Assembly (NCBI RefSeq): GCF_002752635.1
Contig: NZ_AYTW01000002.1
Span: 1-64,000, forward strand
Direction: 5' to 3'
Length of the DNA stretch: 64,000 bases
Source: Mesotoga sp. Brook.08.105.5.1
GTDB taxonomy: Bacteria > Thermotogota > Thermotogae > Petrotogales > Kosmotogaceae
Below are positions 27,593 through 33,429 of this stretch, in pieces. The position numbers and the translations under genes are program-made. Numbering within the stretch: position 1 is the first letter of the stretch; the number at the start of each line of letters is the position of its first letter. A model generated the notes under the pieces. The model did not search any database. It was not told where the DNA came from and saw only the letters and a list, made by a program, of their open reading frames with translations.

Positions 27593-30004
27593 ATGACCAC
27601 ATCATCGACTAAGATAATCTCGAAAATCCTTCTCTATGTAGTTATTATTGGGGGAGCATTCCTGATGCTCGTTCCATTTGCATGGATGGTTGCCACGTCG
27701 TTCAAAGCTCCCAGCGAGGTTTCTAGCTGGCCGCCTGTTTGGACCACGAAAAATGCAGCAAACTCCTTCACCTTTAAGACTCAGATTAAGCAGAAGAGCA
27801 CCAGCGCCTCTGTCGATCTTGCGACGCTGAGTCTTAGCGAATTCAGGAACTTCGCGGCGTTGATGGAAGAGTCAGTTAGTTTTGATACCCTTTCTGTTAA
27901 TTTGAACGATGACCCCATAAGGAGAGGCGAAATAGAGATCCAGCTGCTTGGCAGAGATGGCGCTCCTGCAAACTACGCATCGCAAGTTGATGAACAGCTC
28001 TTTGCCGAATTGGTCGACAGATATAGCGCGATCAAGGATAACGTACCGGATGCTCATGCAAAGTCATTAAGAGATCTACCGGTAGAAGATGCAGGGAGAT
28101 TTCTTGACGGATTCTTCAACACAGCTGTCTATAGTGATGGTGGGTTTGTGAAGAGAGTAGTCCTGGTTAGCTCTCTAAGAGCGCAGTACTCAAGAGCGAT
28201 CGAAAGGCTATCTCAAAGCGTTGAGACTGCGATGAAGGAACTGCCAATAGATACCGATGCAACCAAAGAGATGAAGGCAAGAATCCGCGAAGAGTCGGCT
28301 GTACTCCTTGAAGGGCCTGTTGCTGCTCTTGCGAAGTCAATGGAGTCACTTGAGTCTTACAGAACCGGTACAACAGGAGTCACCGAACTGAGCGAACTAA
28401 AAAGGATCGTGGCCGATCTTAGAAGCAGCACAGATGAAATTCGGAAGGCTGTCTCCGAGATTATCGCTTTGTCTGAAGAAGTCTCTGCTGGAGACGCTCG
28501 GATGTCCCTTTCTGTACGCCAGCTGGAGCGTTCATTGGAAAGCATCCCTGATGGGCTGGTACAATGGTCGGATTTGCTTGACCTTTACTCCGACATAAAA
28601 GTCTTTTACAACGAATCTCAGAACGCCAATCTTTCAGGTTCTTCAATTGTGGGTAGAATTAGAACCGATGCTGAGGTCCATGCGTTGCTTTCGCAATTCA
28701 TAGAGAGTTGGAATGTTGAGCGGGAGCTGAAGGATTATCTGCTTTCCGCAATTAATCCATCCAATGTTCGAAGTGCAGTTACGATCTTTTTGGACTACCT
28801 CGACAGGGATTTCAAGAACAGCCTTTCGCAGTACTTCACGAATACTCAAACACCGCTAGAGGTCGTCAACGACGCAATGAACTTCTTGAGGACATCACTA
28901 CTTGTTGCCGCTAATCCGGAGCTTGACAGGAAGGTCAGAAGCGCAATGGATCAGAACACAACTTATGCTGATCTTGTGGCCCTTTTGAGAGAAGTGGCCT
29001 CATCTGCCGGTCAAACGATAGGGGTCGGAGGAATAGTAGCCAACCTTGACAGACAGGCGAACATAAGTGGTCAAGAACCGTTCGCTGATTTCATCAGACG
29101 TAGATGGAAAGAGACTTCTATGGTCGGTACTTTCTCGAAGGTACATTCCGACATTTTCAGCGAGCTTGACCTTTCAATCAAGCCGGTCGAGGTTGAGAGG
29201 GTCTATTACAGGGGAATAATCTCTCCTTCCGGAGCGAAGTCCTTTGACATAAAGCTTGCGGGAATACACGCAGTCTGGCTTAAAGACGATGTTCCGGCCG
29301 GCAAGGCGAATTTCACATTTGCTGAAACGTTCAAGAACTTCTTCCAGAATTACGTTTCGGCTTGGAATGCGGCTCCGTTTGGCAGGTACTACTTCAACAC
29401 TGTGTTTGTGGCGATGGTTACGACTTTTGTAGAGATAATCTTTGCGGCGATGGCCGCATTCGCCTTTGCGAAGATGGATTTCTTCGGCAAGAATCTGTTG
29501 TTCACGCTCTTTTTGGCAACGATGATGGTTCCTGGCGAGGTCCTGTTGGTCCCGAACTATATCACGCTTACGGCGCTCGGTTGGGTGGACTCGTACTATG
29601 CTCTAATCGTTCCGTGGGTTGTCTCCGTCTTTGCGATATTCCTTCTGAGGCAGCATTTCATGACGATTCCTAATGAACTCTACGATGCGGCTATGATAGA
29701 TGGACTCTCAAAGTGGCGTTTTCTCTGGACGATTCTCGTTCCGCTCTCAAAGCCGGCGGTGATTACTGGTGCGCTACTGAAATTCGTTGGAAGCTGGAAT
29801 TCTTTCCTCTGGGTTCTTATTGTTACAAAAAGTCCGGAGATTAGAACTTTACCTGTCGGGCTTCAGAATTTCAGCTCGGCTACCGGAAGCGACTATCACC
29901 TTTTGATGGCCGCTGCCACTTTCTCGATAATTCCTGTTGTAATTCTCTTCTTGATTACGCAGAAGTACTTCATTGCCGGAATTGCCAGGAGTGGTCTCAA
30001 ATAA
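27593..30004 (+). CDS. malG: ABC sugar transporter permease, MalG type, with ~540-residue insert
   Basis: The second permease subunit starts with a membrane helix (residues about 9-33) and the family's TSFKAPSEVSSWPP segment. A large, mostly helical, membrane-free region follows from about residue 55 to 590. The normal five-helix core then resumes with FGRYYFNTVFVAM and the EAA loop NELYDAAMIDGLSKWRFLW, ending at GIARSGLK. Typical MalG is about 280-300 aa, this one 803. I recall that Thermotoga MalG proteins are also very long, but cannot verify it here. By topology the insert should be extracytoplasmic and might contact the binding protein. Confidence 0.88.
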   Translation: MTTSSTKIISKILLYVVIIGGAFLMLVPFAWMVATSFKAPSEVSSWPPVWTTKNAANSFTFKTQIKQKSTSASVDLATLSLSEFRNFAALMEESVSFDTLSVNLNDDPIRRGEIEIQLLGRDGAPANYASQVDEQLFAELVDRYSAIKDNVPDAHAKSLRDLPVEDAGRFLDGFFNTAVYSDGGFVKRVVLVSSLRAQYSRAIERLSQSVETAMKELPIDTDATKEMKARIREESAVLLEGPVAALAKSMESLESYRTGTTGVTELSELKRIVADLRSSTDEIRKAVSEIIALSEEVSAGDARMSLSVRQLERSLESIPDGLVQWSDLLDLYSDIKVFYNESQNANLSGSSIVGRIRTDAEVHALLSQFIESWNVERELKDYLLSAINPSNVRSAVTIFLDYLDRDFKNSLSQYFTNTQTPLEVVNDAMNFLRTSLLVAANPELDRKVRSAMDQNTTYADLVALLREVASSAGQTIGVGGIVANLDRQANISGQEPFADFIRRRWKETSMVGTFSKVHSDIFSELDLSIKPVEVERVYYRGIISPSGAKSFDIKLAGIHAVWLKDDVPAGKANFTFAETFKNFFQNYVSAWNAAPFGRYYFNTVFVAMVTTFVEIIFAAMAAFAFAKMDFFGKNLLFTLFLATMMVPGEVLLVPNYITLTALGWVDSYYALIVPWVVSVFAIFLLRQHFMTIPNELYDAAMIDGLSKWRFLWTILVPLSKPAVITGALLKFVGSWNSFLWVLIVTKSPEIRTLPVGLQNFSSATGSDYHLLMAAATFSIIPVVILFLITQKYFIAGIARSGLK

Positions 30005-30039
30005 AGAGCAAGAAGGATAAGTCAAGATTCCCGCTCGGG

Positions 30040-30243
30040 TTGTTCTTGTTCATGGCTCTTCTCTTATCGCTCCTGGCGATAACGAATGTCAACGCTTACC
30101 TTAGCTACAAACAGGCTCAAAGAAGACTGGAGAATCTCCAGAAAGAGTATGATGCACTCGAGAAAGAGATAAGAATCAAGGAATCTGAACTTGATCTGCT
30201 TAGAGAGTTGATTCCTGGCATCAACGGTGGAGGCAACAGATGA
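30040..30243 (+). CDS. Small membrane-anchored coiled-coil protein (FtsB/DivIC-like shape)
   Basis: A hydrophobic segment (residues about 2-18) precedes a heptad-rich helix (QAQRRLENLQKEYDALEKEI and onward). This is the shape of septum-formation initiator proteins, but at 67 aa no family can be assigned. TTG 30040 is the first standard start; no strong Shine-Dalgarno is seen, and the frame stays open upstream to the malG stop, so the true start is uncertain. Its stop overlaps the next gene by 4 nt. Confidence 0.55.
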   Translation: MFLFMALLLSLLAITNVNAYLSYKQAQRRLENLQKEYDALEKEIRIKESELDLLRELIPGINGGGNR

Positions 30244-31022
30244 AATTCGTTGTTACGACTTCATACAAACCGACGAAAGAAGTAGTATCTTCTGCGAGAG
30301 GGCTGGCCGAAGAACTGGGTGTCAAATATGTTTCAAGAAGCCGGCTTAAGGAATTTGAGAGCGAGCATTCGCTCGACTTCTACTATGTTTTCGATAAGAA
30401 TGGCCAGTTAACCATTAGAAATAGGGAGACGGTTTTCTTCTTCCACCCCGGAATGTCAAAGGTAAGATTCAAAAACATGAGAATTCAGGACTCCGACTAT
30501 TTGATAAAGAGCATGGATCTCTCCGGAAGTGAAACTGTGTTGGATACAACGTTTGGTCTCGGAAATGAAGCGCTTCTTATCGCGCACTATCTGCCTGAAG
30601 GCAAAGTGATAGGCCTGGAGGCGTCCGAACACATATACAGGATCGTTTCTCACGGTCTTCGCAACTACCCCTATGCAGATGAATGGTTAATAGAGGCTTC
30701 GAGAAGGATAGAGCTTCACAATAGAGATTTACGAGACTTTGTGAAAGGCTGTGAAGACAATGCCTACGATATAGTCTATTGTGATCCTATGTTTGACAGC
30801 CCGCAGATGAGGTCTCATTCGATTAACCCTCTAAGGCCATTTGCGATGTATGAAAGGATAAATAGATCGGACGTTGATGAAATGATCAGGATTTCATCAA
30901 AGAGGTTTATTATCAAAAGCAGAACACGAGACAGCCTCTTCGAAGAGCTCGATCTCGAGTTCGACAGGCTCTGGGGCAGCAAAAAGAGCGGAGTCCTGTA
31001 CGGGGTTATTGATAAAAAATGA
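30240..31022 (+). CDS. Class I SAM-dependent methyltransferase (RsmJ/YpiP-like)
   Basis: A THUMP-free N-terminal part (FVVTTSYKPTKEVVSSARGL) precedes a Rossmann methyltransferase fold. The SAM loop is VLDTTFGLGNEALLIAH, the acidic residue of motif II lies in GKVIGLEAS, and the catalytic-type motif is DIVYCDPMFDSP, resembling the DPPF/Y of nucleic-acid amino- or guanine methylases such as RsmJ. An rRNA or tRNA target is likely but not proven. It overlaps miaA by 4 nt, which fits an RNA-modification role. Confidence 0.78.
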   Translation: MKFVVTTSYKPTKEVVSSARGLAEELGVKYVSRSRLKEFESEHSLDFYYVFDKNGQLTIRNRETVFFFHPGMSKVRFKNMRIQDSDYLIKSMDLSGSETVLDTTFGLGNEALLIAHYLPEGKVIGLEASEHIYRIVSHGLRNYPYADEWLIEASRRIELHNRDLRDFVKGCEDNAYDIVYCDPMFDSPQMRSHSINPLRPFAMYERINRSDVDEMIRISSKRFIIKSRTRDSLFEELDLEFDRLWGSKKSGVLYGVIDKK

Positions 31023-31939
31023 TACCAATTCTCCTCGGACCGACCGCTGTGGGAAAGACATCGCTTCTTCTGGATTTGGCTCAGAGACTACCGATAGAAA
31101 TTGTATCCGTTGATTCGCGTCAGATCTACCGTTTCATGAATATCGGCACGGCCAAGCCGACCGAGAGTGAACAAGCCGTCCTTAAGCACTGGCTGATCGA
31201 CATACGTGATCCCGATGAAGACTTTGATGTGATGGAGTTCAAAAACCTTGCTCTGGAAAGTGTTGCGGACATAACTGCTAGAGGGAAGATCCCGATTCTC
31301 GCCGGTGGAACTGGCCTTTACGCCGAGGTCCTTATGAAGGGTTTGGTGGACGTTCCCCCTAGAGATGAAACGGTGCGAGAGGCCCTTCTTCAGATAGAAT
31401 CCGAAAACAAAGGATCGCTGAGGAAGATCCTGGAAAGAGTCGACAAGAATGCCTTTGAAAGATTCCACGAGAACGATCTCAAGAGAACTATAAGGTATCT
31501 TGAGGTTTTCTTCAAAACGGGAAGACCGCTAACTGAGTTGCAGAACGAGAGAGATCACAATCGTGACTTTTGTCTTGTCATTCTCGAAAGGGATAGGAGC
31601 GAGCTCCATGCCAGAATAGAGAGTCGTCTACATGAGATGATTCGCGCAGGCCTTGCCGATGAGACCGAGAGCCTTCTGTCAAAAGGCTATGGGCCCGAGC
31701 TCAACGCATTTAAGACAATAGGTTACGCCGAAATGGTACAATATATTAGGTGTGGTGTATCCCTCACGGATACTATCGAGCGGATTCTTGTGAACACAAG
31801 AAGATACGCTCGTCGTCAGATTATATGGTTTAGAAGATATTCTGAAGCTCTGAGAATTGACCTGTCCAGTCTAGAAGGTGAGGCTGCTCGGGTTTTAGAA
31901 AATACGGTTCTCTCAATTTGGGGGGGTAAGAATGGCTGA
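31019..31939 (+). CDS. miaA: tRNA dimethylallyltransferase
   Basis: MiaA adds a dimethylallyl group to A37 of UNN-decoding tRNAs. The P-loop is LLGPTAVGKTSL at the N-terminus; VDSRQIYRFMNIGTAKP and ILAGGTGLYAEVL are family signatures, as is LKRTIRYLEVF. The length of 306 aa is typical. The 3' end overlaps hfq by 8 nt, and the miaA-hfq-hflX order is the same as in Escherichia coli. Confidence 0.97.
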   Translation: MIPILLGPTAVGKTSLLLDLAQRLPIEIVSVDSRQIYRFMNIGTAKPTESEQAVLKHWLIDIRDPDEDFDVMEFKNLALESVADITARGKIPILAGGTGLYAEVLMKGLVDVPPRDETVREALLQIESENKGSLRKILERVDKNAFERFHENDLKRTIRYLEVFFKTGRPLTELQNERDHNRDFCLVILERDRSELHARIESRLHEMIRAGLADETESLLSKGYGPELNAFKTIGYAEMVQYIRCGVSLTDTIERILVNTRRYARRQIIWFRRYSEALRIDLSSLEGEAARVLENTVLSIWGGKNG

Positions 31940-32174
31940 AAAGTTCAATTTGCAGGATCGTTTCCTGAATCTTCTTAGGGTTAACAGGATCGAAGTGAAG
32001 ATGTACCTTGAAGGGGGATTCCAGACGAAGGGTTTGGTCAAGTCGTTCGACAATTTCACGGTGCTGCTTGAGGACGGTCAGGAGCAGACTCTGGTCTACA
32101 AGCATGCAATCAAGATGATGGTTCCCCAGAAGTACGTGAAATTGACGAATACTACTGGCAAGAAGGAGGACTGA
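31932..32174 (+). CDS. hfq: RNA chaperone Hfq
   Basis: Hfq is a hexameric Sm-like ring that promotes small RNA-mRNA pairing. The 80-residue protein carries FNLQDRFLNLLRVNRIEVKM, the Sm1 core (GGFQTKGLVKSFDNFTVLL) and the Sm2 YKHAIKMMVP. There is almost no C-terminal tail. A G-run precedes the ATG. Its stop overlaps the region where translation of hflX must begin. Confidence 0.97.
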   Translation: MAEKFNLQDRFLNLLRVNRIEVKMYLEGGFQTKGLVKSFDNFTVLLEDGQEQTLVYKHAIKMMVPQKYVKLTNTTGKKED

Positions 32175-32181
32175 AGCGAGC

Positions 32182-33429
32182 ATAGACACTTTACTTGTCG
32201 CTGTTTTTTCGTCTGAAGAGCAGAATATCAAGTCAGAAATACTGGGCGAGCTTAACGAGCTCGCTCGGACTGCTGGGTACGAAATCGTTGAGACGGTGGT
32301 CCAGAACCTCGATTACCCTGATCCCCGTCACTATCTGGGCAAAGGCAAGGTGGATTTTGCGAGGAGAACACTGGAAGCTTTTGGTGCAGTCCTCATTATC
32401 ACCCGTCATGAGCTGTCTCCATCTCAGGCAATGAACCTGGAGAAGCTTCTTGGAGTCCCCGTAATGGATAGGACGCAACTTATCCTGAAGATCTTTGGGG
32501 ACCACGCATCGACCAAGGAAGGGAAACTCGAAGTTGAGATGGCCAGTCTTAAGTATCAGTTGCCGAGGCTGAAAGGCTTCGGAAGGATACTTTCGCAGAC
32601 TGGAGCGGGAATAGGAACAAGAGGGCCCGGAGAGAAGAAGCTTGAAACGGACAGGCGGCAGGCGCAGGAGAGAATCTCTCGGCTTCGCAAAGACATAGAA
32701 GAGATGGGCAGGCAGAGAGAGATCTCGAGGAAGAAAAGACTCGTTTCGTCGATCCCGCTGGTTTCCTTTGTAGGATATACGAATGTTGGGAAGTCGTCGC
32801 TGGTATCTGAAATCAGCAGTGAAGACCTTCTTGTAGAGAACAAATTGTTCGCGACTCTTGATACTCGAGTCAGGAGAGCTAGACTACCTGCAGGAATGCA
32901 GGTTCTCATTTCAGATACCGTTGGATTCATTAGAGAACTGCCACACGAATTGATGGAGAGTTTCAGATCGACGTTAGATGAAGTCAAATACTCGGATCTT
33001 CTGGCTGTAGTTTCCGATGCCTCTGACATGGCAGTCAAAGAGAAATATGAAATCGTCGATCGTACCCTGCGGGATATCGGCGCCGGTGAAATCAAGAGGA
33101 TCCATGTCTTGAATAAGATCGATCTATGCACGAACGAGAGACTTGCGGAGCTCGGGACGATCTTTCCAGAAGCCGTGATGGTTAGTGCTCTGAAGAGTTA
33201 CAATATCGAAGGTATATTGAGCGAGATATCAACGCGGCTATACGGTAAGAGATCTCGGAGAAAACTTAGACTTAAACCTACCGAGTTTTCGAGCTTCATG
33301 AGGTTCAGGGGTTCGGTCGAAATTCTGTCTGAGAACTACGAAAAGGATCTTATTGAGGTTGAGTATGTGTCCTCCGATGAGATAAATAAAAGGCTCATTT
33401 CTTCTATTTGTGAGGAGGGAAGGAAATGA
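32182..33429 (+). CDS. hflX: GTPase HflX (non-canonical start)
   Basis: HflX is a ribosome-splitting GTPase. The N-terminal HflX domain is seen from LLVAVFSSEEQN through NLDYPDPRHYLGKGKV, the glycine-rich linker is GAGIGTRGPGEKKLETDRR, and the G domain has GYTNVGKSSL, DTVGFIRELPHELMESF and NKIDLC. The first standard start in frame is GTG at 32296, which would remove 38 codons of conserved domain. In-frame codons upstream include ATA at 32182, 12 nt after AAGGAGG, but no ATG, GTG or TTG before a stop inside hfq. I give the ATA as the likeliest start; a sequence error is the alternative. Confidence 0.9.
   Translation: MDTLLVAVFSSEEQNIKSEILGELNELARTAGYEIVETVVQNLDYPDPRHYLGKGKVDFARRTLEAFGAVLIITRHELSPSQAMNLEKLLGVPVMDRTQLILKIFGDHASTKEGKLEVEMASLKYQLPRLKGFGRILSQTGAGIGTRGPGEKKLETDRRQAQERISRLRKDIEEMGRQREISRKKRLVSSIPLVSFVGYTNVGKSSLVSEISSEDLLVENKLFATLDTRVRRARLPAGMQVLISDTVGFIRELPHELMESFRSTLDEVKYSDLLAVVSDASDMAVKEKYEIVDRTLRDIGAGEIKRIHVLNKIDLCTNERLAELGTIFPEAVMVSALKSYNIEGILSEISTRLYGKRSRRKLRLKPTEFSSFMRFRGSVEILSENYEKDLIEVEYVSSDEINKRLISSICEEGRK

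Follow-up and report, generated by a model that had tools for sequence, protein, structure and literature searches.

The window, i.e. the whole 64,000-nucleotide stretch of Mesotoga sp. Brook.08.105.5.1 DNA that was analysed, contains miaA, hfq and hflX in this order (Table 1). The reading frame of hflX was open from a TGA inside hfq to the stop codon at 33427–33429, and no ATG, GTG or TTG was found in this frame of the window sequence between that TGA and GTG 32296, which is codon 39 when counted from ATA 32182. This ATA lies 7 nt past the hfq stop. The protein read from ATA matched TIGR03156 (HflX) over residues 4–352 with 398.7 bits against a curated cut-off of 216.75, and it contained the N-terminal, middle and GTPase domains of HflX (PF13167, PF16360 and PF01926), which placed it in the HflX family. 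Because the profile match starts at residue 4, aligned with profile position 3, most of the 38 codons before GTG 32296 belong to the conserved HflX domain. The preliminary description, which had noted a textbook HflX N-terminal domain from 32182 onwards and no standard start codon ahead of GTG 32296, was therefore correct on both points. No RNA structure beyond chance was detected at the hfq–hflX junction of the window (z = +0.83).

Table 1. Genes and sequence features at the hfq–hflX junction (positions in the window).
Feature	Position	Strand	Remarks
miaA, tRNA dimethylallyltransferase	31019..31939	+	upstream gene of cluster; TIGR00174, 296.1 bits
hfq, RNA chaperone	31932..32174	+	directly upstream of hflX; TIGR02383, 87.8 bits; stop TGA 32172-32174
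TGA inside hfq, last hflX-frame stop before the start	32143..32145	+	reading-frame scan
AAGGAGG, putative Shine-Dalgarno (SD) sequence	32163..32169	+	12 nt before ATA
ATA, proposed hflX start codon	32182..32184	+	ATA in 10/10 Mesotoga genomes
hflX, ribosome-splitting GTPase	32182..33429	+	415 codons from ATA plus stop; TIGR03156, PF13167, PF16360, PF01926
GTG, first standard in-frame start codon of hflX	32296..32298	+	start here deletes 38 codons; GTG in only 3/10 Mesotoga

Among 103 genomes of the phylum, 88 had an hflX match at E ≤ 1e-40 and 15 had none. The hflX junctions of all 88 genomes were compared and 87 were scored; G035 was dropped because its HflX open frame stops short of the conserved N-terminus, and records L038–L040 were left out as copies of G005, G008 and G003. 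In a strict test, we searched for any in-frame ATG, GTG or TTG from the upstream stop up to and including the residue that aligns with Leu4 of the window protein. It was found that no standard codon was present in any of the 17 genomes of the window's family, Kosmotogaceae, which represent five genera. Since it is common to all 17 genomes, the absence of a standard start is neither a matter of chance nor local. The apparent hflX starts in the family were ATA in 13 genomes (all 10 Mesotoga, G010, G012 and G014), ATT in three (G011, G015 and G016) and CTG in one (G013). Every one of them was preceded by an SD (GGAGG or GAGGGG), at a distance of 7–9 nt in the seven genomes outside Mesotoga and of 12 nt in the 10 Mesotoga, a spacing that is long, though counted as workable. 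The next standard codon after the anchor position of the alignment was as far as 116 codons inside the gene (G011). In the HflX tree (87 rows), the 17 family genomes formed one clade (100/99) with long branches within.

The codons ahead of GTG 32296 were also compared among the 10 Mesotoga. Over codons 2–38, variable sites were observed at 16, 12 and 33 of the 37 first, second and third codon positions, respectively; the prevalence of third positions indicated that this stretch is coding. Synonymous variation in hflX was 0.18 in codons 1–14 compared with 0.47 overall, which lends little weight to the argument, because values at the 3' end were equally low or lower (0.18 and 0.11 in codons 393–420) and variation was also reduced in codons 113–126 (0.27).

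Outside the family, a standard hflX start was available in 63 of 70 genomes and absent in seven, although start assignments there were made by eye and are less certain. The genomes lacking a standard codon in the strict test belonged to families f2 (4 of 11), f11 (2 of 13) and f10 (1 of 19), and none was found among the 27 genomes of f3, f4, f5, f8 and f9; in all 10 genomes of f5, a TTG precedes the first conserved residue by four codons. No hflX match at E ≤ 1e-40 was obtained in 9 of the 21 genomes of f2. In genera g36 and g37, which are probably Thermotoga, CTG was observed in all eight genomes (G092–G099), 9 nt after AGGAGG or GGGAGG or, in G092, 6 nt after AGGTGG. No standard codon was found up to the first conserved HflX residue in G098 and G099, and the only one in G092, G093 and G095 was a GTG at that residue itself. 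In G094, G096 and G097 there was also an ATG directly abutting the SD, which is likely too close to work well. The CTG of these two genera may, however, be retained merely as a coding leucine. Further, less sure candidates were G028 (ATA), G030 (ATT or another codon), G036 and G037 (ATC or ATA; near-identical in HflX and counted as one lineage) and G082 (ATC or another codon).

When other genes of the family were subjected to the same strict test, none lacked a standard start (frr 0/14, era 0/16, obg 0/15, hpf 0/17 and smpB 0/15; 0/77 in sum). The infC gene, which encodes IF3 and is the classic gene with a near-cognate start, lacked one in 13 of 16 family genomes, with ATC or ATA behind an SD; the infC genes of G010, G012 and G014 failed the test through an in-frame GTG or ATG within the SD region, and no infC match was found in G006. 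An infC gene was present in 99 phylum genomes; 30 of these loci (two from the family) were read by eye, and all 30 showed ATT, ATC or ATA after an SD-like stretch, while the strict test was passed by only 10 of them.

To put hflX against a background, frames were scored for the conservation that lies ahead of their first standard codon. In the window, hflX obtained the top score among the 62 frames having homologues among five relatives; for 48 of these, a homologue was present in G011 or G012, the genomes that set the score. One of the top three frames was the antisense of hfq, so this list includes spurious frames. In 490 kb of G001, the same score was computed for 246 genes for which stretches of G011 or G012 contained a homologue. 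An earlier screen by longest local alignment had over-called, as alignments ran into the overlapping upstream gene, and it was replaced. Ten genes scored at least 20, and hflX of G001 ranked sixth of 246 with a score of 27; it was only sixth because in G001 an ATG stands at codon 16. Besides hflX, the nine genes with scores of at least 20 and two with 19 were read singly. One more of them looked near-cognate, an amino-acid ABC transporter permease named by resemblance (L209, G001:C1:953194-953883, minus strand), whose conserved N-terminus has no standard start in G011 and whose apparent start is ATA in G001 and ATC in G011. On inspection by eye, the remaining high scorers were put down to conserved leaders that do not code, to overlaps between genes or to a usable standard start in the gene. 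Near-cognate starts may thus occur at roughly 1% of the background genes (3 of 246, hflX included), a rough guess, because the screen misses short cases: the G001 copy of the small gene read from ATA 30001 of the window lies in the same stretch and was outside the top 40. A near-cognate start would therefore not be unique to hflX, which stands out in that its start is fixed family-wide. It should be noted that it is not unusual for chance alone to place a near-cognate codon somewhere in such a short stretch; what carries the case is the absent standard codon together with the conservation.

Taken at the level of sequence, the junction combines no usable standard codon, an SD and a codon class conserved over five genera, as known for near-cognate starts, and we consider it likely (probability of about 0.8) that hflX is translated by near-cognate initiation at AUA 32182. 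AUA initiation was among the possibilities raised in the preliminary description, and the comparison of the junction in related genomes favoured it, with ATA conserved throughout Mesotoga and ATA, ATT or CTG at the matching place in the other seven family genomes. The normal initiator tRNA would read AUA 32182, guided by the AAGGAGG close to the hfq stop, and ribosomes that have just completed hfq would probably help hflX to start. It was observed that hfq lies directly upstream of hflX in all 17 family genomes, with the hflX start −4 to 7 nt from the hfq stop in 16 of them, the few-nucleotide proximity typical of coupled pairs, and 20 nt from it in G013. Coupling of hflX to hfq translation is thus plausible from the gene arrangement. 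The weak start codon would in addition limit HflX and keep its output low.

Several other explanations have to be considered. A sequencing or assembly error hiding an ATG might be suspected in a draft genome of 61 contigs, but the same ATA recurs in all 10 Mesotoga. With the arrangement present in independent genomes, the missing base considered in the preliminary description is refuted and the chance of such an error is negligible. That hflX is an extension of hfq made by programmed frameshifting or stop read-through would agree with the window hflX frame being open 12 codons back into hfq, and with hfq and hflX of G011 lying in one frame across the hfq stop. A fusion of this kind needs a path free of hflX-frame stops between the shift site and hflX, however, and five of the 17 genomes have an in-frame stop shortly ahead of the hflX start: a TAG two codons before ATA in four Mesotoga (G002, G004, G008 and G009) and a TAA directly before CTG in G013. 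Moreover, the hfq frame relative to that of hflX varies (13, 3 and 1 genomes), and visual inspection of the window junction revealed no slippery site. Frameshifting from hfq was therefore rejected as a common mechanism, and we regard this explanation as highly improbable, so that of the coupling or frameshifting from hfq previously suggested only the coupling stands as plausible. HflX might instead start at an internal standard codon and be a shorter protein. Such codons exist, namely GTG 32296 in the window and, in six of the nine remaining Mesotoga (G001, G002, G004, G005, G008 and G009), an ATG at codon 16, but they are not shared: the position is codon 16 in six Mesotoga and codon 39 in three, while in G006 and G011 the first standard codon comes no earlier than anchor + 48 and anchor + 116, respectively. 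As the family profile is matched from position 3 and codons 2–38 vary as coding sequence, an internal start seems unlikely.

A closer competitor holds that AUA is used, but through translational coupling only, restarting ribosomes tolerating a near-cognate codon with no regulation by IF3. It shares the AUA start with the explanation preferred here, so that the odds of the two overlap. The adjoining hfq in all 17 genomes and the short distance in 16 of them speak for it, as does the window's other ATA candidate (30001), which likewise overlaps the stop of the preceding gene. On the other hand, the CTG of G013 has its own SD and lies 20 nt past the hfq stop, and coupling alone leaves the absence of a standard codon in all 17 genomes unexplained. 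We consider coupling alone possible, if rather doubtful.

The explanation preferred here, near-cognate initiation at AUA, can be extended to a role for IF3. If IF3 rejects such codons, it would set the HflX level, and a shortage of free IF3 would raise HflX, in parallel to infC. HflX and IF3 might then form a small start-codon regulon in the phylum, one that is fixed in all 17 Kosmotogaceae genomes and perhaps arose anew in g36/g37 and a few other lineages; we put this forward tentatively, at somewhat less than even odds. Both genes would keep codons rejected by IF3, and the anti-association factor would increase along with the ribosome splitter whenever IF3 is short relative to 30S subunits. 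According to the available part of PMC9067457, HflX acts under stress to split ribosomes that have stalled, after which IF3 holds the subunits apart. This keeping apart of subunits after HflX splitting is a possible reason for co-control. Control of the start by IF3, if real, would be a rare example of this factor acting in trans on another ribosome factor, and ribosome splitting would be tied directly to subunit balance.

Near-cognate starts of comparable kind have been described elsewhere. In Staphylococcus aureus, the accessible part of PMC13009471 describes AUA starts with extended SD sequences mapped by ribosome profiling for infC and ccpN, and an AUA start for citZ. The S. aureus genes ccpN, cvfC1 and citZ resemble hflX in their AUA or AUU start and, for ccpN and cvfC1, in the extended SD and clade conservation; they differ in that ribosome profiling and reporters were used there, on other genes in another phylum, whereas hflX was assigned from sequence alone (PMC13009471). 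Likewise, infC shares with hflX the codon class behind a strong SD and a product acting on ribosomal subunits, but E. coli infC is controlled by its own product (PMC13009471), whereas the putative control of hflX by IF3 would act in trans. In Streptomyces, as given in the accessible part of PMC5472188, IF3 represses the non-canonical start of sigR, a stress-response gene with a start conserved in the genus and an extensive SD; the codon is GTC rather than AUA, and the repression by IF3 was shown by experiment there, whereas for hflX it is inferred. The window's gene order agrees with that of the E. coli amiB-mutL-miaA-hfq-hflX operon (PMC9067457), and in E. coli, Listeria and Bacillales HflX is a ribosome-splitting factor raised under translation stress (PMC9067457, PMC8632094). 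Regulation of hflX is ascribed there to heat-shock promoters or to leader/uORF attenuation, as with the Listeria rli80 leader (PMC9067457) and the Bacillales uORFC-6-1 motif, the latter another tie between HflX and ribosome stalling (PMC8632094). No mention of a near-cognate hflX start was found in the available parts of these two papers, nor was a report of one found in the accessible literature (including PMC10618245, PMC9067457, PMC7157823 and PMC8632094), and the available main text of a T. maritima study (PMC3636130) mentions neither hflX nor infC.

The hflX gene of E. coli starts with ATG. The hflX of Kosmotogaceae would join a known kind, the genes with near-cognate starts, for hflX with no earlier report in the accessible sources, and would add a natural, family-wide example of near-cognate initiation. 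Start prediction leans heavily on ATG, GTG and TTG (PMC5472188, available part), and hflX is therefore probably cut short in annotations of the family.

Some further features were observed during the screens. The second of the 62 window frames was a small gene (30001–30243, plus strand) for an FtsL/DivIC-like membrane protein, named by resemblance. Its first standard start is TTG 30040, but the frame continues back as a basic tail ahead of the membrane helix as far as ATA 30001. This codon overlaps the stop of the ABC permease and has AGGAG upstream; ATA was also present in G001, G007, G009 and G012, and G011 had ATA followed immediately by ATG. The preceding ORF (27593–30004, plus strand; 803 aa) is ABC-permease-like, with a permease domain apparently split by a long insert after the first membrane helix. 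In G001, the gene at L189 (G001:C1:873510-874499, plus strand) was preceded by a conserved leader that is apparently non-coding and contains a palindromic stretch, and this leader is common to G011.
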